Source: a virus
Reading direction: 5' to 3' (one strand)
DNA: 64,000 nucleotides
Virus record (IMG/VR): IMGVR_UViG_3300033156_000392
Location: 1-64,000 of that record
Numbering within the stretch: position 1 is the stretch's first letter; each line of letters starts with the position of its first letter. The translations under genes were made by a program, and so were the position numbers. Shown piece by piece: positions 4,447 through 62,950 of the stretch. Under the pieces are notes generated by a model. The model did no database searches. It saw only the letters and a list, made by a program, of their open reading frames with translations, and was not told the DNA's origin.

Positions 4447-4493
4447 TGTTTTATATTTCTTTTTTCATACCTTTCTTTGGAGGTGTGTAGCAA
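4447..4493 (+). promoter_or_regulatory. Probable promoter of connector operon
   Basis: A TATA-like TTTTATATTT follows the hairpin at 4449-4458, then GGAGGTG and the start codon. Transcription may restart here for the head-tail genes. Confidence 0.4.
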
Positions 4494-9740: not shown

Positions 9741-9752
9741 GGAGGTGAGAAA

Positions 9753-10040
9753 GTGATAGGAGACTCCAAGTCCGGTGTGGCAACTCTTACTCCCTCCGAG
9801 ACGTATGACATCAAGCCTTCGGGAGTGAGAGAAGAGTGGATAGTGACCAATCTGTACACCACTGGTGCATCGACGTTCGAGGTGACCGATGGGACCGACT
9901 CCGTTCCCTTCTGGGAGCCTACAGGCAGTGACAGGCTGAAGGGAGAGAGCTTTCACCTGTCTAGCAGCTACTGGATCAAGGTCACCAACACCGGGTCGAC
10001 GGAGATCAAGATAGCCTGGGACGGAGTGCAGAGCAGGTAG
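9753..10040 (+). CDS. Small beta-rich tail-associated protein
   Basis: A 95-residue protein, all strands and turns (WIVTNLYTTGASTFEVTDG...YWIKVTNTGSTEIKIAWDG), which resembles small virion decoration folds. The GTG start has GGAGGTG upstream. A similar layout appears in the protein at 35892, which hints that both are virion proteins. No precise family. Confidence 0.45.
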   Translation: MIGDSKSGVATLTPSETYDIKPSGVREEWIVTNLYTTGASTFEVTDGTDSVPFWEPTGSDRLKGESFHLSSSYWIKVTNTGSTEIKIAWDGVQSR

Positions 10041-13532: not shown

Positions 13533-13757
13533 GTGCTCTCTCCCACTTTCGTCACTCTGCTTGATCGTCTCTATAGAGGAGAGAGTCACTCCGAAGAGTC
13601 TCTTAGCTCTCTCAGCCAGCTCATAGGCTTTCTCCATCCCGGTTCCGAAGGCTGTCACTCTCACCTCATCGTACTTCCCGAGCTTCACTGCTACAGCCGT
13701 CAAGTAGTTCCCTATGGGCTTCCTGGCTACTCTCACCAAGTTGTCATCACTCCTCAT
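13503..13757 (-). CDS. Alba-family DNA/RNA-binding protein
   Basis: Eighty-four residues fit Alba: a K-P motif at residues 13-14 followed by IGNYLTAV (compare KKPVMNYV), GKYDEVRVTAFGTGMEKAYELAERAKRLFG, and the C-terminal strand SGVLIVLKK. Alba dimers coat DNA and RNA in archaea. The ATG at 13757 overlaps the end of the portal gene. An earlier in-frame ATG at 13775 lies inside the portal and is less likely. It could condense viral DNA or remodel host chromatin. Confidence 0.75.
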   Translation of the reverse strand: MRSDDNLVRVARKPIGNYLTAVAVKLGKYDEVRVTAFGTGMEKAYELAERAKRLFGVTLSSIETIKQSDESGREHSGVLIVLKK

Positions 13758-19139: not shown

Positions 19140-20089
19140 CCTATCACACGTGGGATGGAGAGCTCCGGTATAGGATAGATGCCTATGGTTTCCATGTAGA
19201 ATCTGTCTCCAGACGACCAGAGTCTTCCTGTGGCAACCACCGTCGAGTCTTCGTCAACGGTCAGAGGTACCCACGGATAGAGTCTGCATCTGAGAGAGAT
19301 GTCAGGCTCTTCCACGTCTACCAGATCCACGGAGAATCTTCCGTTCTCTCCTCTAGGCTCTCGGATCCTGTAGATCACACCCTCCACGAAGGTGTATCTC
19401 TGGTTCCTTCGAGCCTTCGTGTGCTCGGGGAGCTGGTATATGGGCACCAGCACTTTCTGGTTGCTCAGAATGTCTCTGACGTCCGGCACTGCCCCTTCCT
19501 TAGCCGTAAACTCGGTGTGCTCAGAGGAGTCCAGACGGAGAACGCCGTTCACGACGTTTCCCTCCAGTGCCTTGAAGGAATAGAGACCGTTGGGCTTCGG
19601 TCCTTCCTCTGAAGCCTTCTCACCGTACATGGTCAGCCAGAAAGGCATCCACGCTCCTCCTCTCTTCAGGGCACCGAGTATGTCTCTGACGTACTCGTAC
19701 CCGGAGAGAGGCTGTCCGTGGTTGGGATTGGGTCTTCCACGTACGTACGGCCTCCAGTCGATGGGAGTACCGTCTGGATCGACCATCCCTCTCTTTATGG
19801 CTGCCTGTAGGTCTTTCTTCGAGAAGCCTTCTGCTATTCTCTTCATCTCTTCTATCACGTTCCTGAGCTCCGAAACACCGAGAATCACACCCTCGAAGTC
19901 CACTGCAGTTCTCCTTGCCATTCTCTCTCTTCGCAGCTTGTTCACTGTCTTGTTCAGAGCAAGCTTCTCCTTGTTCCCTGACTCTGGGAGAGTGGACAGC
20001 ACCTCGTTGTAGATTTTCTCCACTTCGTCAAGAGAGACACCAAACTTGTTGGAGACTTTCTCCAACTTTGTTTTCACTTTTTCATCCAT
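19136..20089 (-). CDS. OB-fold ssDNA-binding protein, RPA-like
   Basis: A 317-residue protein with an N-terminal helical region (residues 1-100) and strand-rich C-terminal half. GRLWSSGDRFYMETIGIYPI at the end and VPIYQLPEHTKARRNQRYTFVEGVIYRI resemble OB folds of archaeal RPA proteins. It directly precedes polB with an ATGA overlap, so it probably coats single-stranded DNA during replication. No zinc finger is seen. Family call moderate. Confidence 0.55.
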   Translation of the reverse strand: MDEKVKTKLEKVSNKFGVSLDEVEKIYNEVLSTLPESGNKEKLALNKTVNKLRRERMARRTAVDFEGVILGVSELRNVIEEMKRIAEGFSKKDLQAAIKRGMVDPDGTPIDWRPYVRGRPNPNHGQPLSGYEYVRDILGALKRGGAWMPFWLTMYGEKASEEGPKPNGLYSFKALEGNVVNGVLRLDSSEHTEFTAKEGAVPDVRDILSNQKVLVPIYQLPEHTKARRNQRYTFVEGVIYRIREPRGENGRFSVDLVDVEEPDISLRCRLYPWVPLTVDEDSTVVATGRLWSSGDRFYMETIGIYPIPELSIPRVIG

Positions 20090-20188
20090 ATGTTCACCAC
20101 TCCTTCTTGGGAACTTCTCTTTTAAAGCCTTTCTGAAATTTATAAAGAAAGGACACCTTTAAATATCCTTCTGCTCTATCTAATACGG
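20090..20188. promoter_or_regulatory. Divergent replication-gene promoters
   Basis: Minus: CTTTATAAATTTC (20137-20149) and TTTTAAAG (20120-20127) precede the OB-fold/polB operon. Plus: TTTAAATATCC at 20158-20168 places a start near 20189, so the DHH mRNA may be almost leaderless. Confidence 0.5.
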
Positions 20189-21145
20189 ATGAACATGAAG
20201 AAAGAAGTTAGCACAATAAGTAAGGAAGAAGCGGAAGAGCTCCTGGGAGGGAAGGCACACAACGTTTCTTCACACTCCGATGCGGACGGTATTTCTGCAG
20301 CAGTTCTCTTCAGTTTGGCTTGGAAAGTCAACTCCATAAGGTTTCCAGAGAGGTTCGGTGACGTGAAGAACGGAGAGACTGTCCTGGATATGACTCCTCT
20401 GGAGGAGGGATTTGAGGGGATTATCATAGATCACCACATCCCAAGGTGTGAGTACCCGAACGCCGTCTATCTGCACGGTGACGAGCCAGCCACCTATTTG
20501 GTCTACTCACTCTCCAAGGAGAGAATACCACCGGAGCAGAGATGGAAGGTAGTCATCGGGTGTGTGGGTGACGGATCGGAGGAAGTCGTTCCTCCAGACG
20601 TGTGGATAAAAAACAAAGACTTGATAGTCGAGATGTCACAGGTGTACAGTGGGAGAGGAGGGATAGATCTCTATCCAAGACCTCTCTTCGAGAAGCTCTC
20701 ACCAGCTCTCAATGCCTTCGCAAGGACTGGACATCCTGATATAGGATACAGAGTCCTTATGCAGTCTGCTACTCCTAGAGACTTCTTGTCACACACTCTG
20801 GTAGACGAGCACAAGAAAATGCTCCAGCAGGAGGAGAGCAGAGTCCTTAAAGAATACCCGGTGAGAGAGGTGGGTCCCGTCTACTACTGGGAGATCAACA
20901 CTTCTTTCCACATGTCGTACTTGGCTTCCAAGCTCCTCTCCAAGAAGCACAAGACAGTCATTCTGGTGAACGCCTACAACAACAGTCTGTCTATAAGAGG
21001 TCCTCTTGCGGAGGTAGCCAGAGTCTTTCTCTCCGACATATGTGATCTCGGTGGCCACAGAGGGTTCATAGGAGGGAGCATAAAGGCTGGAGTAGATAGA
21101 AAAGAAGTTCTACGTACCTTCATCCGTAAATGGTGGAGCACTTGA
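20189..21145 (+). CDS. DHH-family phosphoesterase, RecJ/GAN-like
   Basis: This 318-residue protein has the DHH signature: SHSDADG (D31, D33), DHH at 81-83, and the DHHA1 motif DLGGHRGFIGGS near the C-terminus. Archaeal RecJ homologs (GAN) are GINS-associated 5'-3' exonucleases. Here it leads an operon that also has RadA and an XPF-type nuclease, so a role in processing DNA ends is likely. Length is shorter than the cellular GAN (about 450-480). Confidence 0.75.
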   Translation: MNMKKEVSTISKEEAEELLGGKAHNVSSHSDADGISAAVLFSLAWKVNSIRFPERFGDVKNGETVLDMTPLEEGFEGIIIDHHIPRCEYPNAVYLHGDEPATYLVYSLSKERIPPEQRWKVVIGCVGDGSEEVVPPDVWIKNKDLIVEMSQVYSGRGGIDLYPRPLFEKLSPALNAFARTGHPDIGYRVLMQSATPRDFLSHTLVDEHKKMLQQEESRVLKEYPVREVGPVYYWEINTSFHMSYLASKLLSKKHKTVILVNAYNNSLSIRGPLAEVARVFLSDICDLGGHRGFIGGSIKAGVDRKEVLRTFIRKWWST

Positions 21146-44041: not shown

Positions 44042-44815
44042 TCACTCCGTCTTCGGTAGGAGAAGGTCGAGAGCCACCGTCTCCAGAATTCTCTCTGCCA
44101 GTAGGTCCAGCTTCTTCTGCTTGTGTATCTCTGACTTGTACTTTCTACTGGTTATGGCTGAAACTATCCTCTGGAAGCAGTCCCAGACAGTCATGTCCTC
44201 TATTTCCTTCTTTTGATGGTCTACGGCTATTCTCTGCTCTATTTTCTCTTTAAGTCTCTCTCCAGCCTTTATTCTCTGAAGAATGGCTGTATACTCCTCG
44301 TAATCAAGTTTTCTCTGTGCTAGCTTCTCCACTATCGGTTTCCAGAGCTCTACGACCTTGTTTACCACCTTGAAGTAGTCCTGTACAGCGACGTCTATCT
44401 TTCCTCTGTGGGTCTTTCTGAAGGGTCTGGTGGCGGCCTTTGGGAGCTTGTAGTGGAAGCCTGTTACTCTGTGCACGAAGTCTATTTTGAGAGCGTTCTT
44501 GCCGTCAGCGGTGTTCATGACCTTTATCCCGACGTCGCTCTCCAGTGGGTACACCGTCATCTGCCCTCTTCCTTCCCAATATATCACTCTCCCCTCGATC
44601 TCCTCCGGAAGGTTCTTGAGTGCCTCTCTGTAGAGATCTCTGAACTGCACCAGCTTGTAGTACTTCGAGACCACCGATATGGCTTTCTTCTTCCCTTTCT
44701 CTCTTATGGCTCTGAGCTCCTTCTGCCTCTCCCAGCTTCCGTTGTCGTCTATGGCTATGTCCGTCATCTCAAGCTCCGGTAGCTCTGCAACTCTCTCCAG
44801 TAGCTCTTTCTTCAC
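44042..44815 (-). CDS. Divergent array member, coiled coil and beta core
   Basis: A 257-residue protein with N-terminal helices, a beta segment around residues 75-115 (GRVIYWEGRGQMTVYPLESD), long helices and an end KKLDLLAERILETVALDLLL. Order of parts and position link it to the tandem array that follows, but identity is low. Function unknown. Confidence 0.5.
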   Translation of the reverse strand: MKKELLERVAELPELEMTDIAIDDNGSWERQKELRAIREKGKKKAISVVSKYYKLVQFRDLYREALKNLPEEIEGRVIYWEGRGQMTVYPLESDVGIKVMNTADGKNALKIDFVHRVTGFHYKLPKAATRPFRKTHRGKIDVAVQDYFKVVNKVVELWKPIVEKLAQRKLDYEEYTAILQRIKAGERLKEKIEQRIAVDHQKKEIEDMTVWDCFQRIVSAITSRKYKSEIHKQKKLDLLAERILETVALDLLLPKTE

Positions 44816-44828: not shown

Positions 44829-45473
44829 CTAATTTAATAGTTTCTTTAGCTCATCTTTAGGGATGAGAGCAATCTTGTCTGAGAACTTCTTCTTACTCTT
44901 CAGGATGAAGGCCTCTCCCTTCCTCAAGACACGTCTGTACTCTCCGAGAAGCTTCTTTCTCCTCTCTACAGCCCTATCGAAGTCCAGCAGGATGTTGAGT
45001 ATCTTTCTATCACTAAGGTCTTCTATGTCCCTTCCACAATTCAGAGACCAGTAGAACTTTTGTACTTTCTTCATAATCTTTATCCCTTCCAATATCACGT
45101 CACCGAACTCCTCCAGTCCTTTCTCTCTGAGCCCGAAGAAGAACGTGTCTGGAAGTCCTTCTGAGAGAACATCTATCCTCTGGACGGTCCGGTACTTGTA
45201 TATTCCACCACGTCTCAGAGTGTACTCTGAGTAGATGGATATTCTATTCTCCCAAGCAATGGCAGAGGCTATGAGATGTACAGTTTCTTCCATTCTCTCC
45301 ATAAGGTCTCTGAGAACGGCTGGACTGATCTCTTTCTCTATCTCTTTCAGTGTCACCACTTTCTCTCTCCTCTCCGATACCAGCCTCTTGTACTCCTTCT
45401 CTTTGAAGAGGTTCACACGTTTCTGGAGGAGGCTTAGAGCCTTCAGCCTCTTCTTGAGCTCTTGGTCAATCAT
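44829..45473 (-). CDS. Tandem array protein 1
   Basis: About 214 residues from ATG 45473, whose codons overlap the upstream stop. N-terminal coiled coil (LKKRLKALSLLQKRVNLFKE), EETVHLIASAIAW, beta core with LRRGGIYKYRTVQRIDVLSEG, C-terminal coiled coil ending KKFSDKIALIPKDELKKLL. It closely matches member 3 (MEETMDVIASAI, RKDGIYRYGARYAVDILSDE). Function unknown. Confidence 0.6.
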   Translation of the reverse strand: MIDQELKKRLKALSLLQKRVNLFKEKEYKRLVSERREKVVTLKEIEKEISPAVLRDLMERMEETVHLIASAIAWENRISIYSEYTLRRGGIYKYRTVQRIDVLSEGLPDTFFFGLREKGLEEFGDVILEGIKIMKKVQKFYWSLNCGRDIEDLSDRKILNILLDFDRAVERRKKLLGEYRRVLRKGEAFILKSKKKFSDKIALIPKDELKKLLN

Positions 45474-46116
45474 CCTCATCTCTCCCAAGTGAGTTCAGAG
45501 CTATCTCTGTTGAGAACTTATCGATGATCTCCTCTCTCAGCTCGTCTATCTTCTGTTTCAGAGGGAGTGTTCGTCTGTCTATCTTTCTGAGCTCTCTGAG
45601 CAGCTTCTCCCCTTCTATGAGCGTTTCAAGAGTGTTGTCGAGTGTGTCAACCTTGAAGTAGATAGAGTCCTTCCATACCTTCTTGAAGAGCGTGTCCACG
45701 TGCTTTCTGAGCTTGAGAGAGTATCTGAGAAGCTCTTTCATCCTCTTCATCTTCGTCTTTCTGAGCAGCTCTCGCAAATCTTCTTCATCTATTACGAGAA
45801 GATGTACTCTCTCTGGAGAGTCAGACCAGAATATCCCTTCTCTCGGGACGTATGTGATAGCGTAGTCATCTAACTCCACTTTCACTTTCTCCGTGACCAT
45901 AGCACCAGCCACTCTGTGTATCAGACCTTCTATGGCGTCTGGAAGAGGTGTAACTCTTTCCATCAGCTTCCTCCTGAGTGCAACCAGTTCATCAAGGAGC
46001 TCTCTCTTCTCCTCTTTCATTCTCTTCTTCTCGTCCTCTACGTACTTCTGGAACTCCTTCTCAAGCCTCTGGAGAGTCTTGACTCTCCTCTGTAAATTCC
46101 TGTCCGTTTCTCCCAC
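45466..46116 (-). CDS. Tandem array protein 2
   Basis: A 216-residue member: basic coiled coil (RRVKTLQRLEKEFQKYVEDE), IEGLIHRVAGAMVTEK, core VPREGIFWSDSPERVHLLV and end DKFSTEIALNSLGRDEDD. The C-terminal FSTE pattern is shared by most members. Function unknown. Confidence 0.6.
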   Translation of the reverse strand: MGETDRNLQRRVKTLQRLEKEFQKYVEDEKKRMKEEKRELLDELVALRRKLMERVTPLPDAIEGLIHRVAGAMVTEKVKVELDDYAITYVPREGIFWSDSPERVHLLVIDEEDLRELLRKTKMKRMKELLRYSLKLRKHVDTLFKKVWKDSIYFKVDTLDNTLETLIEGEKLLRELRKIDRRTLPLKQKIDELREEIIDKFSTEIALNSLGRDEDD

Positions 46117-46123
46117 CTCTCTA

Positions 46124-46378
46124 TCAGAGTACGTCGGGGTACCTCTCCAGGAGGTACGATGCTGGGTATGGTCTCCCGTCGACTTTCTTCCCGTCTCTCA
46201 GGAGTATTATCACAGCTATTTCGTTGACGTTGTCCAAGAGTATGACGTCACTGGCCAGCTCTGAGGCAATGTTCTCAAAGACCTCCTCTCTAAGCTCTGC
46301 ACCATATCTTTCCAACATTCTCTGGTCCACTCTCATCTCGGTTAGGATGCCCATTCGCAGGCCTTCTATCTCTCTCAC
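46124..46378 (-). CDS. Small beta/alpha protein within the array
   Basis: Eighty-four residues: RVDQRMLERYGAELREEVFE and ASDVILLDNVNEIAVIILLR. Interrupts the array; not related by eye to the array family. GTG start overlaps the preceding stop. Confidence 0.5.
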   Translation of the reverse strand: MREIEGLRMGILTEMRVDQRMLERYGAELREEVFENIASELASDVILLDNVNEIAVIILLRDGKKVDGRPYPASYLLERYPDVL

Positions 46379-46549
46379 TCACTCTACCTCTGTGGTCCAT
46401 AAATAGATGCAAGCGTTTCCACGTTCCATTTCTTCTCTGTACCCACGTTTGAGTTTCTTTCTCTTTTTCTCTGCATCCTTCCTTCTCTTGAATACATAGA
46501 CCTCTTCAACGAGCCCTCTCCACTCCAGAATTACTGCGTACACTTTCAA
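46379..46549 (-). CDS. Small basic protein within the array
   Basis: Fifty-six residues: KVYAVILEWRGLVEEVYVFK, basic helix, ERGNACIYLW. TTG start with AGGTGAT upstream. Strand-helix-strand; not recognised. Confidence 0.5.
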   Translation of the reverse strand: MKVYAVILEWRGLVEEVYVFKRRKDAEKKRKKLKRGYREEMERGNACIYLWTTEVE

Positions 46550-47244
46550 ACTATCACCTCCTTTTTTTCTCGTTCTCGTCTTGAAGGAAGAAGAGCCAAG
46601 ATGTGAGAGAATTTCTCCAAGCTCCTCCTGATGAACTCGTCCGCCTCTCTAATAGCTTTCTTCCCTTTCTCCCTCCTTTTCAGCAGCTTCTCTCTCAGTT
46701 CATCATAGTGTATCAGGATGTCTACTATTCGGTCCTCTCCGAGGTCCACTCCAAGAGTCGTTAAGTCCAAATTCTCCAAGGGAGCGAAACGTTCGTGTAA
46801 GGAAGTGTAACGTGCTAGCCCCTTCAGCTTCCTTGCTATCTTTCTTCCTCTCTTGATGCATTGACCATACTGTATCAGGAGTTCGTCGTCCACAGTCCCA
46901 AGAAGGTACAGCTCTGGAAACTCTCTCTCGTCGGAGAGAATGTCCACTGCGTAACGTGCTCCGTACCGATATATCCCATCTTTTCTTATACTGTAGCTCC
47001 TGCCGAGAATGACTTTGCCCTTCACTAAGAAAATGGCAGAAGCTATGACGTCCATCGTCTCTTCCATCTCCTCCAGCTTCTCTGCAAACAGAGTCGTTTC
47101 ACTCTCTCTGTAAAGAGCTCTGAGAGCTCTCAGGTCTTCTCTTCTCTCTCTGATGATCCGTTTGTGCTCCCTCTCGATCATTCTCTCCACTCTCCTCCGG
47201 AGCTTTTCAAGAGCCTCTACTCGCTTCTTCAGCTCTCTGTCCAT
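46546..47244 (-). CDS. Tandem array protein 3
   Basis: A 232-residue member from ATG 47244: coiled coil (LKKRVEALEKLRRRVERMIE), LEEMEETMDVIASAIF, core SIRKDGIYRYGARYAVDILS, then long helices and LEKFSHILALLPSRRE. Nearest relative is member 1. An earlier in-frame start at 47283 lies in the upstream gene. Confidence 0.6.
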   Translation of the reverse strand: MDRELKKRVEALEKLRRRVERMIEREHKRIIRERREDLRALRALYRESETTLFAEKLEEMEETMDVIASAIFLVKGKVILGRSYSIRKDGIYRYGARYAVDILSDEREFPELYLLGTVDDELLIQYGQCIKRGRKIARKLKGLARYTSLHERFAPLENLDLTTLGVDLGEDRIVDILIHYDELREKLLKRREKGKKAIREADEFIRRSLEKFSHILALLPSRREREKKEVIV

Positions 47245-47245
47245 G

Positions 47246-47872
47246 TTACGACACTCTCCCTCTCTTGAGCGTTGACAGAGCAAGCTCCTCCGAGAACTCC
47301 TCCATCATTCTCTCCTTCAGCTTCTCCAGTCTCTCTTCTATCTCTCTTCTCTTCTCTAAGTGTGCGTTGAGCTTCTCGAGAATTGTGTCGGCGTTCTGGA
47401 GTGCCTCTATCTGGCCGTGTAGGTAGCCAAGAGATGGTATGTCTGAAGGTTGTCCGGAACTTCTGTAGCTCCGATAGTTCGCCATTATCCTTTGGTACTC
47501 TTCCAAGCACTCTCCGAGTACTTCAAGTTTCCTCTCTCCGGACTCCTTGAGATATTTCAACACTGGTGAGGAGAAGTATTTCAAGTAGATTGGGTACTTA
47601 TGTCTGTAGTAGAAAATCCCTCTCCCGGGTCTGAGGCTAATCTGCTGGCTCACTGTCTTCGTCTCTGTATACATGTTTCCGGCTATCTGATGGAACATTC
47701 GTTCTATGTCTTCTCCCAAGTCTTTGTACACCTCTGCTTTCTTCTCCTCTATTTCCTTCAGGACGTCTTCTCTCTCCTTGACCAGCTCCATCTTCCTCTT
47801 CTCTATGAACTCCTCAACCCTCTCTCTGAGAGTTTCAAGCCTCTTGAGCTCCTCATTCAGCTTCTCATCCAT
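47246..47872 (-). CDS. Tandem array protein 4
   Basis: A 208-residue member: coiled coil, ERMFHQIAGNMYTETK, core SLRPGRGIFYYRHKYPIYL, C-terminal coiled coil and end EEFSEELALSTLKRGRVS. The RPGxGIFYY pattern is the clearest shared core in the family. Confidence 0.6.
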   Translation of the reverse strand: MDEKLNEELKRLETLRERVEEFIEKRKMELVKEREDVLKEIEEKKAEVYKDLGEDIERMFHQIAGNMYTETKTVSQQISLRPGRGIFYYRHKYPIYLKYFSSPVLKYLKESGERKLEVLGECLEEYQRIMANYRSYRSSGQPSDIPSLGYLHGQIEALQNADTILEKLNAHLEKRREIEERLEKLKERMMEEFSEELALSTLKRGRVS

Positions 47873-48518
47873 TCTTCTTCCTCCTCAACGAGTACATACT
47901 CGCTTCCTCAGAGAATTTCTCCAGCATTTCTCCTCTCAGCTTCTCGATTTCTCTCTCAATCCTGTCTTTCTCTCTCAGAGCTTCTTCCAGTCTCTCTTTC
48001 TCCTCGTCTATCGTCGACAAGTACTCTATCATCTCTATCCCGTGGTAGTCCGGTCCAGCGTAGTATGGAGGGCTCTCAAAGCTATGATACAGAGCCCGTA
48101 GTCCCTCGTACAAGCAGGAGAGTCTGTGTATGTAGAAGCCGAGAGCTCTCACTCTCTCGTTCTCAGAGCTCATCATACTTCTTCCAGCTCCATCGTCATA
48201 GAATATCGGTGCTCTGTGTTTCTTTCTGTGGTAGAAAATTCCTCCGTTCGGTCTTATCACTAAGTATTCGGAGTTCAGATAGGGCTTCTGTAGAGGTATC
48301 TTGATGAGCTTGTTGCTCATCTCTCCAGCTATTCCGTGTATCAGTTCTTCCATCTCGTTTGTCGAGGGTGGAGAGAGTTCTTTATATAGCTCTCTCACCC
48401 TCATTAGCTCTTCGTGCTTGGAGTTCACGATTGTGTCTATCCTGCTGTATATGAAGTTTCTCACTCTCACCTTCAGTGTCTTCAGCCTTTCAGCCTCTTT
48501 GACAAGCTTAACGTCCAC
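47865..48518 (-). CDS. Tandem array protein 5
   Basis: A 217-residue member: coiled coil, MEELIHGIAGEMSNK, core VIRPNGGIFYHRKKHRAPIF, coiled coil and end EKFSEEASMYSLRRKKNG. Overlaps member 4 by eight bases, which implies coupling. Confidence 0.6.
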   Translation of the reverse strand: MDVKLVKEAERLKTLKVRVRNFIYSRIDTIVNSKHEELMRVRELYKELSPPSTNEMEELIHGIAGEMSNKLIKIPLQKPYLNSEYLVIRPNGGIFYHRKKHRAPIFYDDGAGRSMMSSENERVRALGFYIHRLSCLYEGLRALYHSFESPPYYAGPDYHGIEMIEYLSTIDEEKERLEEALREKDRIEREIEKLRGEMLEKFSEEASMYSLRRKKNG

Positions 48519-48519
48519 A

Positions 48520-49137
48520 CTATCTCCTCCTCTCCTTCAGGAAGTAGAAGGTGGCCTCGGTACTCATCTTCTCCAGAAGTCGTCCTATCTCTCTCCAGAT
48601 TTCTCTGAACGTCTTCTTCTTGAATTTTAGGACTTCTCTTCCGTACTTCAGGTGACTGTCCAAGCGAGCAATGAAGTACAACCTCTCTCTCTTCTGCTCA
48701 GGGACGGCTGGAAGAAGGTTTCTTACCGAGAAATAGGAGTCCAGCAGTCCACGGACTCTTCCAAGAGTCTTAGCAATCTCTCTTACCTTCTCGTTCTTCG
48801 AGTTCAGCATCCCAGCTATCCCAATCAACGAGAGTACGTCGACTCTCAAAATCTTCTCTCTCTTCTTTCCTCCGTACAGTCCTTTCCCCGGACGTATGAC
48901 CAATTTTCCACACCGGACTGGCTTCTCTGCTATCTGCCCAAGCAAGCCCTGTATGAGGTCCTCCACCTTTAATATCTCAGGATAAGGGTTTGTTTTATCT
49001 ATTAGCTCTGTGTATTTCTTGAGCTTCCTCATTCTCCTTCTCTCCAGCTTCTCCATCTCTTTCTCCACAAAGGTAAACATGGCTGTCTCAAGCTTCTCCA
49101 GAGACTTAACTCTCGCAAGGAAGTCCTCATCTCTCAC
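48520..49137 (-). CDS. Tandem array protein 6
   Basis: A 205-residue member: coiled coil, VEDLIQGLLGQIAEK, core LVIRPGKGLYGGKKREKILR, coiled coil and end EKMSTEATFYFLKERRR. The aromatic-Tyr pair of the core is partly lost. Confidence 0.6.
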   Translation of the reverse strand: MRDEDFLARVKSLEKLETAMFTFVEKEMEKLERRRMRKLKKYTELIDKTNPYPEILKVEDLIQGLLGQIAEKPVRCGKLVIRPGKGLYGGKKREKILRVDVLSLIGIAGMLNSKNEKVREIAKTLGRVRGLLDSYFSVRNLLPAVPEQKRERLYFIARLDSHLKYGREVLKFKKKTFREIWREIGRLLEKMSTEATFYFLKERRR

Positions 49138-49756
49138 GTTTCTCCCTCGACAGCAGATAGAGAGGAAGGTCTTCTGAGAACTCGCTATAGACCTCTCTCT
49201 CGATCTCTCTAATCATCTCCTCAATTTTTCTTTTCCTTCTCAGCTTTCTTTTGAGTTCTCTCAGTACGGTCTTGTGGTTGAGAGCCAAAGACGCTTTCTC
49301 CTCCTCCGAAGTATTCTCTATCAACCAGACTCCGTACAGACAGGCATCCAGTTTCTCGTACAAAGCAGAAATTCTCTCCGAGAAGTCCGCCACCCTTATC
49401 GCTCTCTTCTCACCAGTTTCTCTGAGCTTCTTTATGAGCGTCTTAGAGGGGTAGTACGTAAGCAACATTCCTCCCTCATCCGAGAGTCTGACTCCTCTCC
49501 CCGGAACGATGAGTAGACTCAGACCGTTTATCTCTCCAAGATACACAATTTCTCTCAGGTCGGCAGAGAGAACGTACTGCAGGAAGTCCTCCAAGTTTCT
49601 CCTGACTCTCCATAGGTGTCCGTCCAATAGCTCGTGTGCGACTCTCTCTATCTTTCTAAGCTCTACTCTGTGCTCTCTCAGTATCCTCTTTATTTCAGCT
49701 TTCTTCCTGTAGACGTACTCTTCAAAAGTTAGTCCCTTCTCACGCTTCAAAGTCAT
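49127..49756 (-). CDS. Tandem array protein 7
   Basis: A 209-residue member: coiled coil, core LLIVPGRGVRLSDEGGMLL, C-terminal coiled coil and end SEFSEDLPLYLLSREKRER. VPGRGV corresponds to the RPGxG core of members 4-6. Confidence 0.6.
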   Translation of the reverse strand: MTLKREKGLTFEEYVYRKKAEIKRILREHRVELRKIERVAHELLDGHLWRVRRNLEDFLQYVLSADLREIVYLGEINGLSLLIVPGRGVRLSDEGGMLLTYYPSKTLIKKLRETGEKRAIRVADFSERISALYEKLDACLYGVWLIENTSEEEKASLALNHKTVLRELKRKLRRKRKIEEMIREIEREVYSEFSEDLPLYLLSREKRER

Positions 49757-50396
49757 CCCTCCTTCTGAGAGCGTACATAGAAATCTCTGTGGGGAACTCG
49801 CTCGTGAGTTTCTCCACTAGCTTCGCTAGCTCCATTCTCAAGTGTCTCGCTTCCTCAGCCGCCTTCTCTGCTCTTTCCATCTTGAAGTCTATGAAAGCCA
49901 AGAACCAGAGTCGTTCGACTGTGTCAGAGGGTATCTCTGGCACTGAGCCCCTTATTTCTCTGTATCCCTGGACGATCTCGAGGAACGTATCCAGTCTCTC
50001 TCCCAGTTTTTTCTGCTTCTTGTCCTTACTTCCGTATAGCTCTATGATGACGTTTGTGATTTCTCTTATCGGAAGAGTCAGCAGAACGTACTTTATTCCC
50101 AAGTTTATCCCTACTTCGGGACTCTCTGCCGTCTTCACCATCCTCTCCAGCCGTATTTTGCCTCTCGTCACCTCTGTCAACAGTTCTCGTAGGAGAGATT
50201 CAACAAGACATAGCTCGTCTCCGAGTTTCTCCAAGTCTTTCAGAGTGTCGATGTACTCTCTCATTTTCTTCTCTCCTTCTTTCAGCATTCTCTCCTTCTC
50301 GCTGAGTATGAAGCCTCTCATTCCTCTCTCAAGCCTCTCAAGGGCGACCAGTGTTTTCATAATACTCCTCTCCGGCATTTGTTCTTTTTTCTCCAT
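49740..50396 (-). CDS. Tandem array protein 8
   Basis: A 218-residue member from ATG 50396: coiled coil, VESLLRELLTEVTRGK, a less clear core (INLGIKYVLLTLPIREIT), coiled coil and end SEFPTEISMYALRRRD. An earlier start at 50423 lies in the upstream gene. Confidence 0.55.
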   Translation of the reverse strand: MEKKEQMPERSIMKTLVALERLERGMRGFILSEKERMLKEGEKKMREYIDTLKDLEKLGDELCLVESLLRELLTEVTRGKIRLERMVKTAESPEVGINLGIKYVLLTLPIREITNVIIELYGSKDKKQKKLGERLDTFLEIVQGYREIRGSVPEIPSDTVERLWFLAFIDFKMERAEKAAEEARHLRMELAKLVEKLTSEFPTEISMYALRRRDDFEA

Positions 50397-50407
50397 TCTA
50401 CCAGCCA

Positions 50408-50953
50408 CTACTTCAGAAGCCATATACAGAGCCTCTCTGAGTGCTTCATAACGAAGTCCTTGAGAATTTCTTCCGCCTCCTCCGCTTTCTCTCTCGTTTC
50501 CATCAGCATCTTCGCTAGCTCTCTCTCTATTCTCTTCCTATGTCTATAGAAGCACTCATAAGAGGTTGGGTCCTCCGGGTTAATAAATCTCTCTCCTCTC
50601 TTTATTCGGAGTTTAGAGTCTATAATGAGGGTAAATTCACTATTTAGTCGTTTCTCTCTCTTCTTTAGAGTAAATATCTTGTTTATTTTTCTGTATATGG
50701 AAAATAGTCCCTTTATGACCTCTATTTTGTCTTTACTGAGAGAATATATATCTATTCGTTCGCCTTCCCAAGTGTAGATGCCGTTTCTCCTAAGTAGCAC
50801 CTCTCTCTCCAGCTCACTCTCTATCAACTTGAGTACTTTGGCTACTATATTCCTGTGTGCTCTTCTCCAGATGCCCTCCACGTACAGGTGGAGCTCGCTC
50901 AGATGTTGGTAGACGCTCCATTCTCTCAACCAGAAGGCTTCTTCTCTTCTCAC
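50408..50953 (-). CDS. Tandem array protein 9, divergent
   Basis: A 181-residue protein: N-terminal helix, core LLRRNGIYTWEGERIDIYSL (compare GIYKYR/GIYRYG of members 1 and 3), C-terminal coiled coil and end MKHSERLCIWLLK. Coding here is more AT-rich. First gene of the array in transcription order. Confidence 0.55.
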   Translation of the reverse strand: MRREEAFWLREWSVYQHLSELHLYVEGIWRRAHRNIVAKVLKLIESELEREVLLRRNGIYTWEGERIDIYSLSKDKIEVIKGLFSIYRKINKIFTLKKREKRLNSEFTLIIDSKLRIKRGERFINPEDPTSYECFYRHRKRIERELAKMLMETREKAEEAEEILKDFVMKHSERLCIWLLK

Positions 50954-50963: not shown

Positions 50964-51353
50964 CTATCTTCTTTTCAGGAGCTTCCAGAGTCCAAGCTTC
51001 CCTATGAAGGTCCAGTACTTTTCTCTCCCCAAGAATCTCTCTCCCCATCTCTCGGAGAAGGCTTTGGGGCAGTCTATGACGTGCTTCGGGAGAGTTTCTA
51101 TGATGTATTTCTTCAGTTTCTCCTCGCTCTCGAAGCTCAAGTAGAAGCTCTTGTCTTTTCCGGCTACTCTGACTATCTCTGCTTTCTTGTCCAGAGCACC
51201 TCTCAGTATCTCTGACGCTATCGAAGGGTCTATGGACTTGAAGGGGAAGCTGAGTATCCTCCACTCTCCCTCGTAGGCTCTGTGAACCCAGAGAGCCTCT
51301 CTCCACGTGGGGAGGAGTCCCTCTATGTAGCACAGCAGTTTCTTCCTACTCAT
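50964..51353 (-). CDS. Second paralog family, member 1
   Basis: A 129-residue protein: SFPFKSIDPSIASEILRGAL and SFYLSFESEEKLKKYIIETL. The F-x-x-x-x-x-x-x-x-x-I-x-x-G segment aligns with the two upstream genes. A perfect palindrome lies 23 bases before the ATG. Function unknown. Confidence 0.5.
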   Translation of the reverse strand: MSRKKLLCYIEGLLPTWREALWVHRAYEGEWRILSFPFKSIDPSIASEILRGALDKKAEIVRVAGKDKSFYLSFESEEKLKKYIIETLPKHVIDCPKAFSERWGERFLGREKYWTFIGKLGLWKLLKRR

Positions 51354-51375: not shown

Positions 51376-51396
51376 CTAAAATAATCATTATTTTAG
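51376..51396 (-). promoter_or_regulatory. 21-bp palindrome, copy 3 (perfect, compensated)
   Basis: CTAAAATAAT-C-ATTATTTTAG. Both arms changed together relative to the consensus (AAC/GTT to AAT/ATT), so symmetry was kept. Twenty-three bases before the gene at 51353. Confidence 0.65.
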
Positions 51397-51400: not shown

Positions 51401-51772
51401 CTACTGCTGGCTCGCTCCCTCTGACAGGATCTCAATCGCTATGTTCTGGTATATCTCGTCCCAGTCCTCATCAGTCATTCCAAGCACTGTTTTGCTCTCT
51501 CTTATGAACTTCTTCGTGTACTTCTTCATATATTTGGAGAGGTACTTGATGAACTCTATCATTTTCTTTCTCCTCTTGAATATGAAGAATATGTACGATT
51601 TCTTCACAAGCGGAATTTCTATTTCTCCCCTCAGTGCTATTCCTCTCTTCACTATCTCCGTAAGCGTCTCACTCCTAAAGCCGTACGCTTTGAAAAACAC
51701 TCCGTTAAAGCCGGAATTGTACCACAAGAGAGTCCCGAATATCTTCATTTCTCCTATCACTTTGTCCACCAT
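51401..51772 (-). CDS. Second paralog family, member 2
   Basis: A 123-residue protein: YGFRSETLTEIVKRGIALRG, IFFIFKRRKKMIEFIKYLSK and TDEDWDEIYQNIAIEIL. Same layout as the gene at 52189. GGTGAG precedes the ATG; palindrome 20 bases upstream. Confidence 0.5.
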   Translation of the reverse strand: MVDKVIGEMKIFGTLLWYNSGFNGVFFKAYGFRSETLTEIVKRGIALRGEIEIPLVKKSYIFFIFKRRKKMIEFIKYLSKYMKKYTKKFIRESKTVLGMTDEDWDEIYQNIAIEILSEGASQQ

Positions 51773-51814: not shown

Positions 51815-52189
51815 CTACTGAGTCCTCTCAGCAAGCCTGTTTACGACGACGTTGCTCTCTATAGTCTGGTACTCCTCCTCACTCAGTCCAAGTTTCTCTC
51901 TTCCTTCGAGTCTGAACTTCCTCGTAAGACTCCTCAGAACGGTGCTGAGGTAGAGGAGAAACTCTCTCAATTTCTCCATACGTTGAAACCGGAGAACCAG
52001 CGTCGCTCTCGACTTAGACCGAAACGCTGACGTGAACAGCAGGAGAGTCGCTCCTCTCTCCACACCCTCTTTCACTATGTCCGTGAGAGCCTGTGCCGGA
52101 AGGGTGTCTGCTCTGAAACTTATGTCTCTCTCCATCTCGAACCAGACCGGAATCTTCTTCTCGGTCATTCTGCCTATCATCAGAGTCAT
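51815..52189 (-). CDS. Second paralog family, member 3
   Basis: A 124-residue protein from ATG 52189: ISFRADTLPAQALTDIVKEG, ATLVLRFQRMEKLREFLLYL and LSEEEYQTIESNVVVNRLAE. Clear paralog of member 2 (FRxxTLxxxLTxIVKxG). Confidence 0.5.
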   Translation of the reverse strand: MTLMIGRMTEKKIPVWFEMERDISFRADTLPAQALTDIVKEGVERGATLLLFTSAFRSKSRATLVLRFQRMEKLREFLLYLSTVLRSLTRKFRLEGREKLGLSEEEYQTIESNVVVNRLAERTQ

Positions 52190-52208
52190 ATGCTCGCCTC
52201 TCTCTTCC

Positions 52209-53468
52209 TCACTCTTCCTTCCGTATTCTGGTAGTTCTCCCAAATGGTACTTCTTCCTCTGCCTTACCGTCTGGTGTCAGTATCCAGAGTGTCTCGTGTC
52301 TTCCTCTCCTCTCTGGGAAGTCTCCGTACCCGTCGGTGAAGTAAATCAGCAGTTTCGCTCTCTTCTTATGCTCTCTTATCCACTCGAAGACTGGTCTGAA
52401 GTCCGTCCCACCGTATCCAGTCCTCTTGAAGACTCTCTTTCTGGAGACCTTCTCAAGAGGTTCTGCCATCTTGATGCTGGCGTCGCACTCTATGTATGTC
52501 CCTCTCAGTGTGTCTCTGTGTATGTCGAATATTCTCCTAATCTCTCCCATAAACTGAGAGTAGTCCTCGTCAGATATTGACCCAGACGTGTCCACCGCTA
52601 TCACTATGTCTATCTTCTCCTTGAGTACTGATGGGAAGTATGTCCCGAGTGTCTGAGAACGTTTGTGCGGTCTTCGCCAAGTGTAGTCTTTTGGTATCTC
52701 TTTCGTGATGTATCTCCATAGCATCTGCTTCCACCCAAGTTTAGACGGTAGTATCTTGTCTATCAGTTTCTGTAGTCCTGCTGGCAGTTTTCCCTGTACC
52801 TTAGCGAATGTGGCGGCCTTGATGGTGATGTCCTTCCAGAACTCTCCTATGTCCGTCTCCGGATGTTTAAAAGGCTCTTCGTTGCCTCCGGAGCCCTTCT
52901 CGTCCTTCTTTCCCTCGTTGTCTTCTCCCTCTTCGCCATAGAACCCTTCTTTCTTGTCGTTGTGGGTGTCGAACTGCTTCTGGAGTATTCCCTTTCCTTC
53001 TCTGTCTCCCTTTCCGTCTCCACCACTTCCAGAGACGGGTATGTGTATCTTCTTTGCGTTCTTCATCAAGTAGTCGTAGACCGCCTCTACCACCTTGCCT
53101 CTGAACGTCTCCAGCGGCTGTATTGCGAAGTCTGGCACTGGACTCCCAGACTCGTAGAGCATAGTGTTCACGACGTAGTCTCCCGCTATATTCCAGACGA
53201 CTGGCTCTCTCCCCTGTCTCCTCAACAAGTGCTCAAGTATCAGATGGAGTATCTCGTGCTTTATGACGAACTGTAGTTCTATGTCTCCCAGCTTCTTCAC
53301 GAAGTCTGGATTGTACGGTACGTTTCCGTATCTGTCTACTCCCATCGTCGGTATCTTCTTGTTCTCTCTGAACTTCAGGTATGTGGCTATGTAGGAGAAG
53401 AACGGCTCTTCTTCCTGTAGGAGAACTATGGCTCTCGTTATTCTCTCTCTTGGAGTCAGTTGAAACAC
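52209..53468 (-). CDS. Zincin plus VWA protein (DUF2201-like)
   Basis: A 419-residue protein. Residues 1-115 hold a zincin-like motif H71-E-I-L-H75 with H80 (VIKHEILHLILEH). A charged Gly-rich linker (about 145-210) follows. Residues 290-400 are a VWA-like domain: MIDAS-type DTSGS, later T in YGGTDFRPVFEW and TDGYGDFPE. It pairs with the AAA+ gene at 54287, as in MoxR-VWA chaperone systems. The GTG start has AAGGAGGTG. Confidence 0.75.
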   Translation of the reverse strand: MFQLTPRERITRAIVLLQEEEPFFSYIATYLKFRENKKIPTMGVDRYGNVPYNPDFVKKLGDIELQFVIKHEILHLILEHLLRRQGREPVVWNIAGDYVVNTMLYESGSPVPDFAIQPLETFRGKVVEAVYDYLMKNAKKIHIPVSGSGGDGKGDREGKGILQKQFDTHNDKKEGFYGEEGEDNEGKKDEKGSGGNEEPFKHPETDIGEFWKDITIKAATFAKVQGKLPAGLQKLIDKILPSKLGWKQMLWRYITKEIPKDYTWRRPHKRSQTLGTYFPSVLKEKIDIVIAVDTSGSISDEDYSQFMGEIRRIFDIHRDTLRGTYIECDASIKMAEPLEKVSRKRVFKRTGYGGTDFRPVFEWIREHKKRAKLLIYFTDGYGDFPERRGRHETLWILTPDGKAEEEVPFGRTTRIRKEE

Positions 53469-53545: not shown

Positions 53546-54280
53546 TTACTTGTCTCTCTCCAGAAGTTTCACGGAGACGTATGGTGCGGCTATCATATAG
53601 GCCGCCCTCACTCTTTCCTCTAAGTCGTCTCTGAACTTCCTGAACTCCTCTACTCTCTTTCTGACTTCCTGTCTGATGAACTCCTCGTGTATGTAGAAGA
53701 GAGTCAGAGAGTCGAGGTCGCTGTAGAGTCGTGTCCTTATACCGTAAAGTTTGCTCTGAACCTCTATGCTTGTGTACGGAAACGCTATCCACAGTTCGAC
53801 TGTCTCTGTCTCCACTGTATACTTCGTCTTCCACTCCACGCCCTTCACTTGCTTCAGACACTCTATCAGAGTCTTCAGCATTTCCTTCTTTGTGGGTCTG
53901 ACGTTCGCTCTCGCTTCCTCTGTCTGGAGAAGGTCTATGAACTTCTCTATCTTATATGACCTCGCATAGACGCTGTCGTCGTATACCTTGAACTCAAACA
54001 CACTCCCTCGCCCACTGTTGTAGTACCCTTTGTAGACGAGTCCCGTGTTCGTTATGGCGACGTCGTCAAGGTCTGCTCTCTTCCTCATCAGCCCTCTCGA
54101 CAGTGTTCTTATCAGTTTCTCGTAGTTTGTACAGAGAGTATGTACGTCTTGGGAAATCTTCGTCACCTCTTTGTCCACCTCGCTCTTCCACTCCGTCAGT
54201 TCGTCTCTGAGTTCGTCTACCTCTCTCCAGAACTCGAAGTTCTGGGGCTGTGTGTACTCCTGCTCAGGCATCTCCACCAC
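53546..54280 (-). CDS. Coiled-coil/beta protein between AAA+ and VWA genes
   Basis: A 244-residue protein: N-terminal coiled coil (LRDELTEWKSEVDKEVTKIS), beta core (YNSGRGSVFEFKVYDDSVYA, TVELWIAFPYTSIEVQ), C-terminal coiled coil and end APYVSVKLLERD. The order coil-core-coil is the same as in the tandem array, which suggests an adaptor that the AAA+ machine works with. Similarity is structural, not clear in sequence. Confidence 0.5.
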   Translation of the reverse strand: MVEMPEQEYTQPQNFEFWREVDELRDELTEWKSEVDKEVTKISQDVHTLCTNYEKLIRTLSRGLMRKRADLDDVAITNTGLVYKGYYNSGRGSVFEFKVYDDSVYARSYKIEKFIDLLQTEEARANVRPTKKEMLKTLIECLKQVKGVEWKTKYTVETETVELWIAFPYTSIEVQSKLYGIRTRLYSDLDSLTLFYIHEEFIRQEVRKRVEEFRKFRDDLEERVRAAYMIAAPYVSVKLLERDK

Positions 54281-54286: not shown

Positions 54287-55384
54287 TCAGAAGGTGTACT
54301 TGACTATCGTCTTTGAAATCTCCTTCCACTCCGGTATCTTTGCTGAGACTCTCCGTACGTACTTCTGGTGTCTGAGTACCAAGTTTCTCATCAGGACTAT
54401 TCCGAACTCTGGTTTTTCCCACGCTGTCTCTGTCAACTGTGCTATCTTACAGTATGCTCTGAAGAACTTCTCGTCCTCTTTGAAGAAGTGTATCAGAGCA
54501 GATGTCAGAGCCCATCTCTCGTTGAGAGCAGTTATGTCTCTCACTCTGTTGGGGTCTCTCACGAAGTCCTCCACCTTGTACTTCTTGACCAGTCGTGAGA
54601 ACTCTATGAACTCCTTCGCTATGCCGTTGCCCACCGATGACGCCACGAGTATCTCTATCTCTTTCTCGTCCTCTACGTCAGAGATTAGTTTAGAGGCTCT
54701 CCACCAACTCCTCGGAGTCGGGAAGGCTCTCTCCTCAGTGTTCTCTTCCAACTTGAAGAGATAGTCTGCTCTGAAGTTCAGAAATGCCTGTATCCTGTGG
54801 TCTACACCGTTCTTCATAGCCCACCGTGTCCAGATGTTTATGTGTGGCACTCTGAGTTCAACCCAGTCAAATCTGTTCTCAAGTGGCTTGGCCATCTCGA
54901 AGGTGTGTGCTCTGTCTTCCTCTTTGTTTCCAGCACCTATCACCACGTATCCCTCTGGGAGTACGTAGTCTCCGAGTTGTCTGTCCAGAATCAACTGGTA
55001 GCACGCACTCTGTATGCTCGGTGGGGCTAAGTTTATCTCGTCTAAGAAGATAATCCCTGCCCCTGTCTTTGGGAACCAAGATGGGGGTATCCACTTGGTT
55101 ATTCCACCGTGTCCGTTCTCCATTATCTTAGGCAGTCCGAGAAGGTCGCTTGGCTCTAACTGAGAAACTCTCCTGTCTATAAGGCAGAAGTGCTTCTCAG
55201 AGTTTATGTCCTCTGGTCGCTCTGAGTACTCGAGTTTCATAGACTCCGCTATCTCTTTGGCAGTCTTCCTGACTGTGTCCGACTTGCCTATCCCTGTCCT
55301 CCCCTGTATACAGAGAGGTATCCTCTTCTCATAGTGTCTCCGTATGACTCTCTCGAGTTCTTCGTGGTTCACTTCTCTCACCAT
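54287..55384 (-). CDS. MoxR-type AAA+ ATPase
   Basis: A 365-residue AAA+ protein: Walker A GRTGIGKSD (28-36), Walker B GIIFLDEINLAPPSIQSACY, the QLILDRQLGDYVLPEGY insert typical of MoxR/RavA, sensor 1 VIGAGNKEED and PLENRFDWVEL. It should remodel proteins with the VWA-zincin partner. The gene is first in the three-gene module, with GGTGATGTGAA at its start. Confidence 0.8.
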   Translation of the reverse strand: MVREVNHEELERVIRRHYEKRIPLCIQGRTGIGKSDTVRKTAKEIAESMKLEYSERPEDINSEKHFCLIDRRVSQLEPSDLLGLPKIMENGHGGITKWIPPSWFPKTGAGIIFLDEINLAPPSIQSACYQLILDRQLGDYVLPEGYVVIGAGNKEEDRAHTFEMAKPLENRFDWVELRVPHINIWTRWAMKNGVDHRIQAFLNFRADYLFKLEENTEERAFPTPRSWWRASKLISDVEDEKEIEILVASSVGNGIAKEFIEFSRLVKKYKVEDFVRDPNRVRDITALNERWALTSALIHFFKEDEKFFRAYCKIAQLTETAWEKPEFGIVLMRNLVLRHQKYVRRVSAKIPEWKEISKTIVKYTF

Positions 55385-59528: not shown

Positions 59529-59834
59529 CTATAACTTCTTAGGTCTCACTAAGACTTGGGCGGGGTTCTGTTTGTATGACACTCGCCAGTTTGGATATTT
59601 TCTCTTCAACTGTTGTGCTACACTCCTCACGTTCTCTGTTTTGATTGGTGCGGTTGTGTGTTCTTTGAAAACGTCAAAAGGAATAGCCACGAACTCATCA
59701 GTTTTCTTGACGTTCTGTATAGCGTTGTTTATGGCAGTCTTCAGCGTCTCATCAATATCCCACTTTGTCGAGATTGGTTTAACGACAACCTCGAGCGTCA
59801 ACTGAACCCCTTCATTTTTGTTGTTGTTCTTCAT
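59529..59834 (-). CDS. Hypothetical protein, foreign composition
   Basis: A 101-residue protein (LTLEVVVKPISTKWDIDETL, VRSVAQQLKRKYPNWRVSYK). The C-terminal half looks like a helix-strand DNA-binding end. Its Asn/Gln content and CGC/CGT codons differ from the rest. A separate TATA (CTTAAATA, 59868-59876) and a palindrome lie upstream. Confidence 0.5.
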   Translation of the reverse strand: MKNNNKNEGVQLTLEVVVKPISTKWDIDETLKTAINNAIQNVKKTDEFVAIPFDVFKEHTTAPIKTENVRSVAQQLKRKYPNWRVSYKQNPAQVLVRPKKL

Positions 59835-61128: not shown

Positions 61129-61670
61129 TGATGCCGTACCTCTGTAACTGTCAGTGCAAGATAGGAAAGTCTCCCAATAGAGATCTCTACCACGATCTGA
61201 GAGTCAAGGAGAGATACTCCTACGAGAGGCTCTCGCAGGTGGCTAGAGAGAAAGGGGAAGATATTTCTCCCATGGCCTTCCACAGACACTTCACCAAGCA
61301 CGTCAAGCCTGCACTGGAGGAGTACGTAAAGATGAATGCGTCAGAGGCTTGGCTCAGGGAGAGAGCCAGAGAAGAGGTCAACTTGTACCACGAGATTCTA
61401 TCTAACCTAGTTCTGCTCAGAGAGAAGGTCGAGGAAGCGTGTAGACTCCCTCTCTCATCCTCCAACATCACTGCACTCACCAATCTTCTGGGTGAGATAA
61501 GAAAGACTATCGTATACATCGCACAGCATAAAGACCAGCTTGTCGGGATAAGAGGAGAGATGAGTGAAGACATAACTCTCTCCTATCTCTTCGAGATCAT
61601 AGACGAGCTTCCGGAAGACAAGAGACAGAAGCTGAAGGCGAAGCTTCAGGCTCTGGTGGGTCTGACATGA
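61128..61670 (+). CDS. Small terminase subunit-like protein
   Basis: A 180-residue helical protein directly upstream of the large terminase. The N-terminus (CNCQCKIGKSPNRDLYHDLR, YSYERLSQVAREKGEDISPM) resembles an HTH that would recognise viral DNA, followed by helices for oligomerisation. ATGA-type overlap with the large subunit. Confidence 0.6.
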   Translation: MMPYLCNCQCKIGKSPNRDLYHDLRVKERYSYERLSQVAREKGEDISPMAFHRHFTKHVKPALEEYVKMNASEAWLRERAREEVNLYHEILSNLVLLREKVEEACRLPLSSSNITALTNLLGEIRKTIVYIAQHKDQLVGIRGEMSEDITLSYLFEIIDELPEDKRQKLKAKLQALVGLT

Positions 61671-62950
61671 ACATAGCGTGGAAGGCATATAAAATATGGG
61701 AATGGTACAGTGCTCCGTCCATCTACTTCAAGGACGTGACGGGACAGGATCCCATAAAAGGACAGAAGCATATAATGGACTTTCTACCGACCAACGAGAA
61801 CAGGTTGCTGGTGTGTGCCGCCTCTGGAGCCGGGAAGACGAGAGTGCTGGCTGCTGCAGCTCTCTGGGAGTGTACGGTACTACCTACCATCATCAGGAGG
61901 CCAGTCAAGGCACTGGTTCTTTCTGGATCTTTGGAGCAGTCAAAAGTTCTCTACGACTACACCTCAGAATACATCAAGAGGTGCAGCATAGTCGGTGACA
62001 TGGTACAGACCAGATTGAAGACTGAAACGAGATTCAAGAACGGCTCTCTTTTGAAGGCTCTTCCCTGCTCCGAGAGAGCCTTCTACGGTAAGCATGTAGA
62101 CCTACTGATCATAGACGAGGCAGCTCTAAAAGACATACCAGAAACGATCATAGACCATGCTCTGTCCATAGTGGCTCCAGTAAAAGGCTCCAAGCTCATG
62201 ATGTCTTCGACTCCCTATGAGCCTTCCTCAAGGTTCGTGAAGATGTGGGAGAAGGCACCAGAGGAGGGGTGGCTGAGGATAAACTGGTCGGCTGAGGAGT
62301 GCAACTGGATTCCGAAGAGTGTGATAGAGGAGGCACGGAGGACTCTCTCAGAGACGGAGTTCAGAATAAGGTGGAAGGGAGAGATAGTTACACCTTCAGA
62401 CACGTACTTCAGACGGGAGAGTATAAAGCAGTGTTTGATCAGTCAAAAGCCAAGGAGGGGAGAAGGAGAGATATTTGGAGGACTTGACTGGGGCTTCAAA
62501 CATTCGACTGTTCTTACTCTTGTCCAGTCTGAGGGTGAAGAAATTAACGTATTACTCACGAAGGAGTGGAAGAGAGAACGAATAGACAAAATATACGCCG
62601 ATATTCTCACTATTTGTAACGAGTATCATCCGAGACTCATCAATGCAGACTCTTCTCACGTCTTCGAGAACAACAAGTTAAAGGAGCTTGGAGTCCCTTT
62701 GGAGCCTATATCCTTTGCTAAGGAGAAGGAGAATATGCTGAACAATCTCGCCTCTCTTTTGGAGCACGGGAAGCTCTCCATCTGGGAAGAGGAAACTACT
62801 CTCATCTCCCAACTGAGGGACTACAAGAAGGGACTTCGTGGAGGGGACGACTTCGTTGACTCTCTCATGCTTGCGGTGAAAGACGTCTACAGTCCCACAT
62901 ATTCCGTACCAGCTGAGAAAGTACCTTTCAAGGTGGTAAAATACTTATAG
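61667..62950 (+). CDS. Terminase large subunit
   Basis: A 427-residue packaging motor: Walker A AASGAGKT (51-58), Walker B LLIIDEAAL (146-154), coupling SSTPYEPSSRF, and RNase H-fold nuclease with D in GGLDWGFKHST, D in LINADSSH and D in DDFVDSLMLAV. It cuts concatemers and pumps DNA into the capsid. Next to the small subunit. Confidence 0.85.
   Translation: MNIAWKAYKIWEWYSAPSIYFKDVTGQDPIKGQKHIMDFLPTNENRLLVCAASGAGKTRVLAAAALWECTVLPTIIRRPVKALVLSGSLEQSKVLYDYTSEYIKRCSIVGDMVQTRLKTETRFKNGSLLKALPCSERAFYGKHVDLLIIDEAALKDIPETIIDHALSIVAPVKGSKLMMSSTPYEPSSRFVKMWEKAPEEGWLRINWSAEECNWIPKSVIEEARRTLSETEFRIRWKGEIVTPSDTYFRRESIKQCLISQKPRRGEGEIFGGLDWGFKHSTVLTLVQSEGEEINVLLTKEWKRERIDKIYADILTICNEYHPRLINADSSHVFENNKLKELGVPLEPISFAKEKENMLNNLASLLEHGKLSIWEEETTLISQLRDYKKGLRGGDDFVDSLMLAVKDVYSPTYSVPAEKVPFKVVKYL

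Follow-up and report, generated by a model that had tools for sequence, protein, structure and literature searches.

Eight diverged paralogs and a probable ninth form a tandem array in a tailed virus, behind a palindromic candidate operator

What might a virus gain from a row of neighbouring genes whose products resemble each other in length and design but differ widely in sequence? The question is raised by IMG/VR virus record IMGVR_UViG_3300033156_000392, of which bases 1-64000 out of 73,253 were analyzed (the window), and concerns an array of minus-strand genes at positions 44829-50953. An earlier note, made from the sequence alone, described this locus as a tandem set of about nine divergent paralogs with a coiled coil-beta core-coiled coil design. 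All nine reading frames are present in the order and at the coordinates given there (M1 to M9, M1 being at the upstream end). The row itself, however, is broken by two unrelated small genes located between M7 and M8, and the array is therefore not fully contiguous.

Eight of the nine genes, M2-M9 on the minus strand at 44829-50423, are securely related. All-against-all alignment with shuffled controls gives strong scores for most pairs of these proteins, and a profile built from the eight, run against the entire record, matches at eight positions and no others. When each member in turn is left out and a hidden Markov model (HMM) is built from the other seven, the omitted member is recovered in every case (E-values from 3.8e-9 to 1.3e-33, M3 being the weakest and M5 and M6 the strongest), whereas reversed or shuffled decoys reach best scores of 7-13.4 bits, all below 13.5. 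The shared ancestry proposed for these adjacent genes is thereby borne out, as is their strong divergence with length kept, since pairwise identity among the copies is 15-33%. As judged from their sequences, the eight copies are paralogs of one gene, and three or more adjacent genes on one strand are significantly similar to one another. In a tree, M7 groups with M9, M2 with M4 (then M5), and M3 with M8, a pattern that would fit tandem duplication and later rearrangement.

The ninth gene, M1 (50408..50953), encodes a protein of 181 aa with a shorter N-terminal part. Its profile scores are weak, i.e., 8 bits with the full profile and at most 13.4 bits in one leave-one-out run, which is below or near the decoy level. 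In single-sequence HHalign comparison, M1 matches in the expected register over ‘LRRNGIYTW..ERIDIYS’, the best result among the single proteins tested, and its core ‘LRRNGIYTWEGERIDIYS’ aligns in register with ‘LRRGGIYKYRTVQRIDVLS’ of M9. The core hairpin motif is supported at p=0.038, and the C-terminal motif is weak (rank 20 among 554 open reading frame ends). Because the profile scores are weak but register, motifs, and structure model are concordant, M1 is considered a probable ninth member of the family. A tenth, weaker member had been suggested at 44042, and this suggestion does not hold: the gene following M9 (44042..44815, minus strand, 257 aa) has no match to the family in profile searches or by HHalign and bears a faint resemblance to DUF932 (E 0.0046, 17.2 bits, below the Pfam cutoff of 23). 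The gene at 53546..54280 was also considered as a member and is likewise undetected by the family profile and HHalign.

The proposed design agrees with the structure predicted for M6, which shows a long N-terminal helix, a beta hairpin, and C-terminal helices. The AlphaFold model of M6, obtained with an eight-row alignment, has a predicted local distance difference test score (pLDDT) of 85.9 and a predicted template modelling score (pTM) of 0.71, and consists of helices 3-48 and 54-67, a hairpin at 78-88, and helices 103-109, 114-139, 151-159, 161-192, and 194-207. For M1, with the other members as alignment, confidence is lower (pLDDT 67, pTM 0.44), and the model comprises helix 3-48, a hairpin at 52-61, and helices 74-118, 129-170, and 172-180, i.e., the same helix-hairpin-helix order as in M6. 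The fold of the family is thus a prediction for M6 and a weaker one for M1. Positions that are invariant or nearly so include L12, E57, G85, F193, and R204 (M6 numbering). Mean pair identity is the same, 26%, for the hairpin as for the first two helices, and amounts to 38% over residues 193-204; overall, the ends show 21-38% as compared to 10-17% in the middle, at residues 93-160 (shift test, p=0.046). Net charge also varies, from +21 in M4 and +14 in M9 to about neutral in M2, M5, M6, and M8. Searches for fold neighbours of the M6 model with Foldseek and VIA-align yield nothing beyond generic helical similarity (best Z 6.4) and no matching solved or viral structure, and a PDB search gives weak helical matches.

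The genes overlap or nearly touch, as had been stated, at most junctions, where they overlap by 8-17 nt or lie about 1 nt apart, a layout compatible with coupled translation. Upstream of M1, a gene for a 129-aa protein unrelated to the array family (50964..51353, minus strand) is the first of the putative transcription unit. M1 is followed, all on the minus strand, by M2 (49740..50423, 227 aa), M3 (49127..49756, 209 aa, the most divergent secure member), M4 (48520..49137, 205 aa), M5 (47865..48518, 217 aa), M6 (47246..47872, 208 aa), and M7 (46546..47244, 232 aa), then by the two intervening genes at 46379..46549 (a weak DUF7204 match, E 2e-4, below cutoff) and 46124..46378 (84 aa), and finally by M8 (45466..46116, 216 aa) and M9 (44829..45473, 214 aa, closest to M7). 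The lengths of M7 and M9 are counted from likely corrected ATG start codons at 47244 and 45473, respectively. Shine-Dalgarno-like sequences precede several starts, GGAGG in the case of M3 and GAGGAGGA in those of M5 and M6. This arrangement would fit a single message with coupled translation.

While gene junctions were being read, a 21-bp palindrome, CTAAAATAACNGTTATTTTAG, was spotted that the earlier note does not contain. Allowing up to 3 mismatches, it has 10 matches in the window versus 0.02 expected. Its degenerate form, CTAAA[AG][ACT]AA-N3-TT[AGT][CT]TTTAG with the half-site CTAAA[AG][ACT]AA, has 8 exact and 11 near-exact sites (at most 1 mismatch) versus none in block shuffles, and with up to 2 mismatches 12 sites are found versus 0.05 expected. 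These sites, of 21 bp each, begin at 17249, 29878, 40575, 42060, 44829, 51376, 51792, 56878, 57151, 57204, 58770, and 59881, and most of them are situated 11-46 nt ahead of the start codon of a minus-strand gene. The copy CTAAAATAATCATTATTTTAG at 51376..51396 lies 22 nt upstream of the gene at 50964..51353, from which the unit runs into the array, and the site at 51792 is located one gene further upstream. The only site inside the array is a weaker one with 2 mismatches (44829..44849), located where M9 ends and 13 nt short of the gene that follows; it would close the unit. A reading of the palindrome as an RNA hairpin was considered and set aside: perfect copies could fold, but asymmetric copies do not, and the DNA reading is preferred for this reason. 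The palindrome is regarded as a probable candidate operator of a virus-specific regulon, and action of a dimeric DNA-binding regulator at these sites is favoured, the product of 59529-59834 being one candidate for it. The adjacent small genes at 51401-51772 and 51815-52243 (123 and 142 aa) are of like design and, by eye, possibly paralogs of each other.

Relatives of the array proteins were sought widely. There is no match above noise in Pfam, PHROGs, or NCBIfam, and no relative in viral contigs scanned with M6, M7 plus M9, and M5 plus M6 plus M8, in genome contigs scanned with M5 plus M6 plus M8, or in annotated phages; the contig scans are pattern-based, and distant relatives may escape them. 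Comparison of the profile to 53 virus records carrying a metallopeptidase-vWA gene gives nothing convincing (best E 0.08), nor was a second genome with the array found that would bear on the kept gene order or the recognition or anti-recognition role suggested in the earlier note. The family thus seems to be without counterpart in the libraries searched and appears to be lineage-specific and absent from the other lineages sampled, as is expected for a fast-evolving accessory family of a single lineage.

The virus is a tailed one, with genes for an HK97-type capsid protein (3536-4381), a terminase (61667-62950), and a Mu-like portal (13747-15021). It also possesses a family B DNA polymerase whose nearest relatives, at about 25% identity, are those of haloarchaeal tailed viruses, and the window encodes an ERCC4-HHH nuclease; the host is probably an archaeon. 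Capsid, terminase, and candidate adhesin genes are located on the plus strand, while the array belongs to a minus-strand arm away from most of the recognised head and tail genes, the exception being the portal gene, which is on the minus strand about 30 kb from the array. At L008 1476-4139 (record positions 65476-68139), three tandem paralogs with a common ‘HSHSGG’ start are candidate adhesins, one of which, by eye, apparently has an extra LamG-like insert.

Our tentative preference is that the array constitutes a lineage-specific repertoire of non-virion, host-directed proteins for counter-defence or takeover that share an unchanging helical scaffold and vary more in the middle, a reading which we hold to be possible rather than probable. 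Within this virus lineage, tandem duplication would have multiplied one gene encoding a small helical protein, and the resulting copies, now at 15-33% identity, would be expressed from one transcript under a viral regulator of many non-structural genes of the arm. Their long end helices may form homo- or hetero-oligomers as the constant scaffold, their less conserved middle (approximately residues 93-160) may contact different host targets, and the set would act as a repertoire against host defences or for takeover of the host. Distinctly unlikely, in our estimate, is the fuller version in which a viral binding repertoire is built from nine copies mixing as homo- and hetero-oligomers on a constant coiled-coil scaffold, with a diversified middle for different host targets and joint control within the palindromic-operator regulon. 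A survey of archaeal viruses reports that anti-defence genes have virus-specific regulatory sequences in common and that copies of AcrID1 are clustered by duplication (PMC11065993), and this precedent makes a counter-defence role plausible, not proven. The AcrID1 clusters of rudiviruses SIRV1-3 resemble the array in consisting of close-set, multiplied, and diverged genes, many of them behind virus-specific regulatory sequences (PMC11065993). The likeness, however, is one of genetics and not of sequence, as none of the family models searched matches the array and a defence target is hypothetical here.

Several observations weigh against this preference. No array member resembles a known anti-defence protein in Pfam or PHROGs, and PADLOC, a library of defence proteins, yields coiled-coil noise only. 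The palindrome precedes the array unit but also many other genes of the arm, so that anti-defence genes are not singled out by it. The contrast in variability between ends and middle is modest, and no orthologs were found that would allow a test for positive selection. Moreover, the oligomeric state is presumed from the predicted helices, and the archaeal host is deduced from the weak similarity of the DNA polymerase (25% to haloarchaeal viruses) and from the ERCC4-HHH nuclease.

If the copies instead were subunits of one hetero-oligomeric machine, prefoldin-like or a scaffold of fixed stoichiometry assembled via coupled translation, their similar lengths, their overlapping genes, and the long N- and C-terminal helices around a beta hairpin would be accounted for. 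In prefoldin, too, end helices flank a beta hairpin, as in the M6 model, but the array proteins are longer, have extra helices, and show neither a sequence match above cutoff (Prefoldin and Prefoldin_2 of Pfam at noise, E 3.6-4.1) nor significant structural similarity to prefoldin or another assembly, although the searches cannot exclude a match. Divergence between the copies is also high and uneven, and we regard such a machine as unlikely. Tails and heads often contain coiled-coil proteins, and this would suit minor structural components of virion or tail; the array, however, is on the minus-strand arm, and the genes for capsid, terminase, and candidate adhesins (though not the portal) are on the plus strand, which makes this very unlikely. 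Just as improbable is a set of nucleic-acid-binding or transcription-modulating proteins, each with target sites of its own, which the strongly basic charge of several members, above all M4 and M9, would suggest: M2, M5, M6, and M8 are about neutral, and a DNA-binding domain is not recognised by Pfam, PHROGs, or NCBIfam.

A further alternative arises from the genomic neighbourhood. Located 1.2-4.5 kb upstream of the array and on the same strand are genes for a MoxR-type AAA+ ATPase (54287..55384; phrog_1297, E 1e-80), for a predicted coiled-coil protein of 244 aa (53546..54280, not a detectable member of the family), and for a metallopeptidase-vWA protein with DUF2201_N and DUF2201 (52209..53468). 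A MoxR ATPase together with a vWA protein carrying an N-terminal metallopeptidase domain, which defines the MoxR/metallopeptidase-vWA pair, is thus found among the neighbours of the array and not within it. For VMAP, the third component of ternary MoxR-vWA systems, there is no model match among the neighbours at the limits used, in a library not confirmed to hold a VMAP model. In an account of jumbo phages, the pair is proposed as an aid or chaperone in virion assembly, and proteins such as those of the array stand outside the pair as described there (PMC7824862); MoxR-vWA conflict systems are related to it in kind (PMC7159879). The paralogs might hence be clients or adaptors of the pair, remodelled or clipped, e.g., during virion assembly, a possibility that we consider rather unlikely. 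In its favour, an unrelated array of eight ~200-aa proteins at another viral locus, L028, stops 64 bp before a metallopeptidase-vWA gene, and arrays adjoin such genes also at L025, L016, and L092. Families of at least four are found at 9 of 81 MoxR/vWA loci and at 0 of 80 DNA polymerase control loci. Yet a general link disappears with same-genome controls (8.9 families of at least four per Mb at these loci versus 5.9 per Mb in other stretches of these genomes, i.e., no clear enrichment) and in the adjacency test (3 of 64 loci with tandem families no more than 2 kb from the vWA gene versus 2.5% expected, p=0.2). A C-terminal tag common to the array and neighbouring genes was looked for and is absent, a position matrix of the C-terminal tail, considered as a recognition tag, matching only the eight members and M1 marginally; in addition, a palindrome site lies between the vWA gene and the array unit. 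Because the same-genome controls show no clear enrichment, no link between array and MoxR/vWA genes is claimed.

The earlier note had called an array of this size rare in a virus. Such arrays are indeed uncommon in viruses, but known: among 81 other viral loci, 3 have a family of at least eight nearby, and 1 of 60 further 20-kb tiles contains one, so that the present array is not unique. The L028 array (62-5387; IMGVR_UViG_3300035183_001189), on a tailed-phage contig, is likewise a tandem row of eight diverged paralogs of matching size, with N-terminal ‘ENEDEFF’ and several ending in ‘LPKHLGDYIRKVQF’, and directly precedes the metallopeptidase-vWA gene; it shares no profile similarity with the present array (HHalign E 0.26), and homology of the two is rejected. 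At L009 (870-7036; IMGVR_UViG_3300048588_000476), at least 13 tandem small Cys-rich paralogs with ends like ‘ELALALLMMEG’ lie upstream of a MoxR/metallopeptidase-vWA pair, and small tandem families stand beside such a pair at L025 and L092. The tandem ~70-aa proteins of L025 fall into two distinct families (9180-9983 and 18771-20409), the larger one with N-terminal ‘LPDHPAR’ and C-terminal ‘EALDxFYxxxIAxKML’. Viral contigs L188, L193, L209, and L213 contain tandem families of 5-7 proteins of 420-450 aa, whose Cys motifs resemble, by eye, those of radical SAM/SPASM proteins, and in Moorella phage MTATph1 (L012 1377-24950) several proteins with ‘NPxxPxEVLxxLA’ helical repeats surround the MoxR-vWA genes. 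For Bacillus phage G, a passage of a published account describes an expansion of zinc ribbons to about 35 copies, which is like the array in being a large lineage-specific viral family, but is of another protein type and is not described there as one operon (PMC7824862).

With eight to nine copies side by side in a single viral genome, natural variants of one fold are at hand in which binding can be compared, and the palindrome gives a handle on which viral genes switch together. Should the counter-defence reading be true, the array would be a case of a tailed virus deriving a repertoire from copies of a single scaffold, much as seems to have happened with AcrID1 in rudiviruses.

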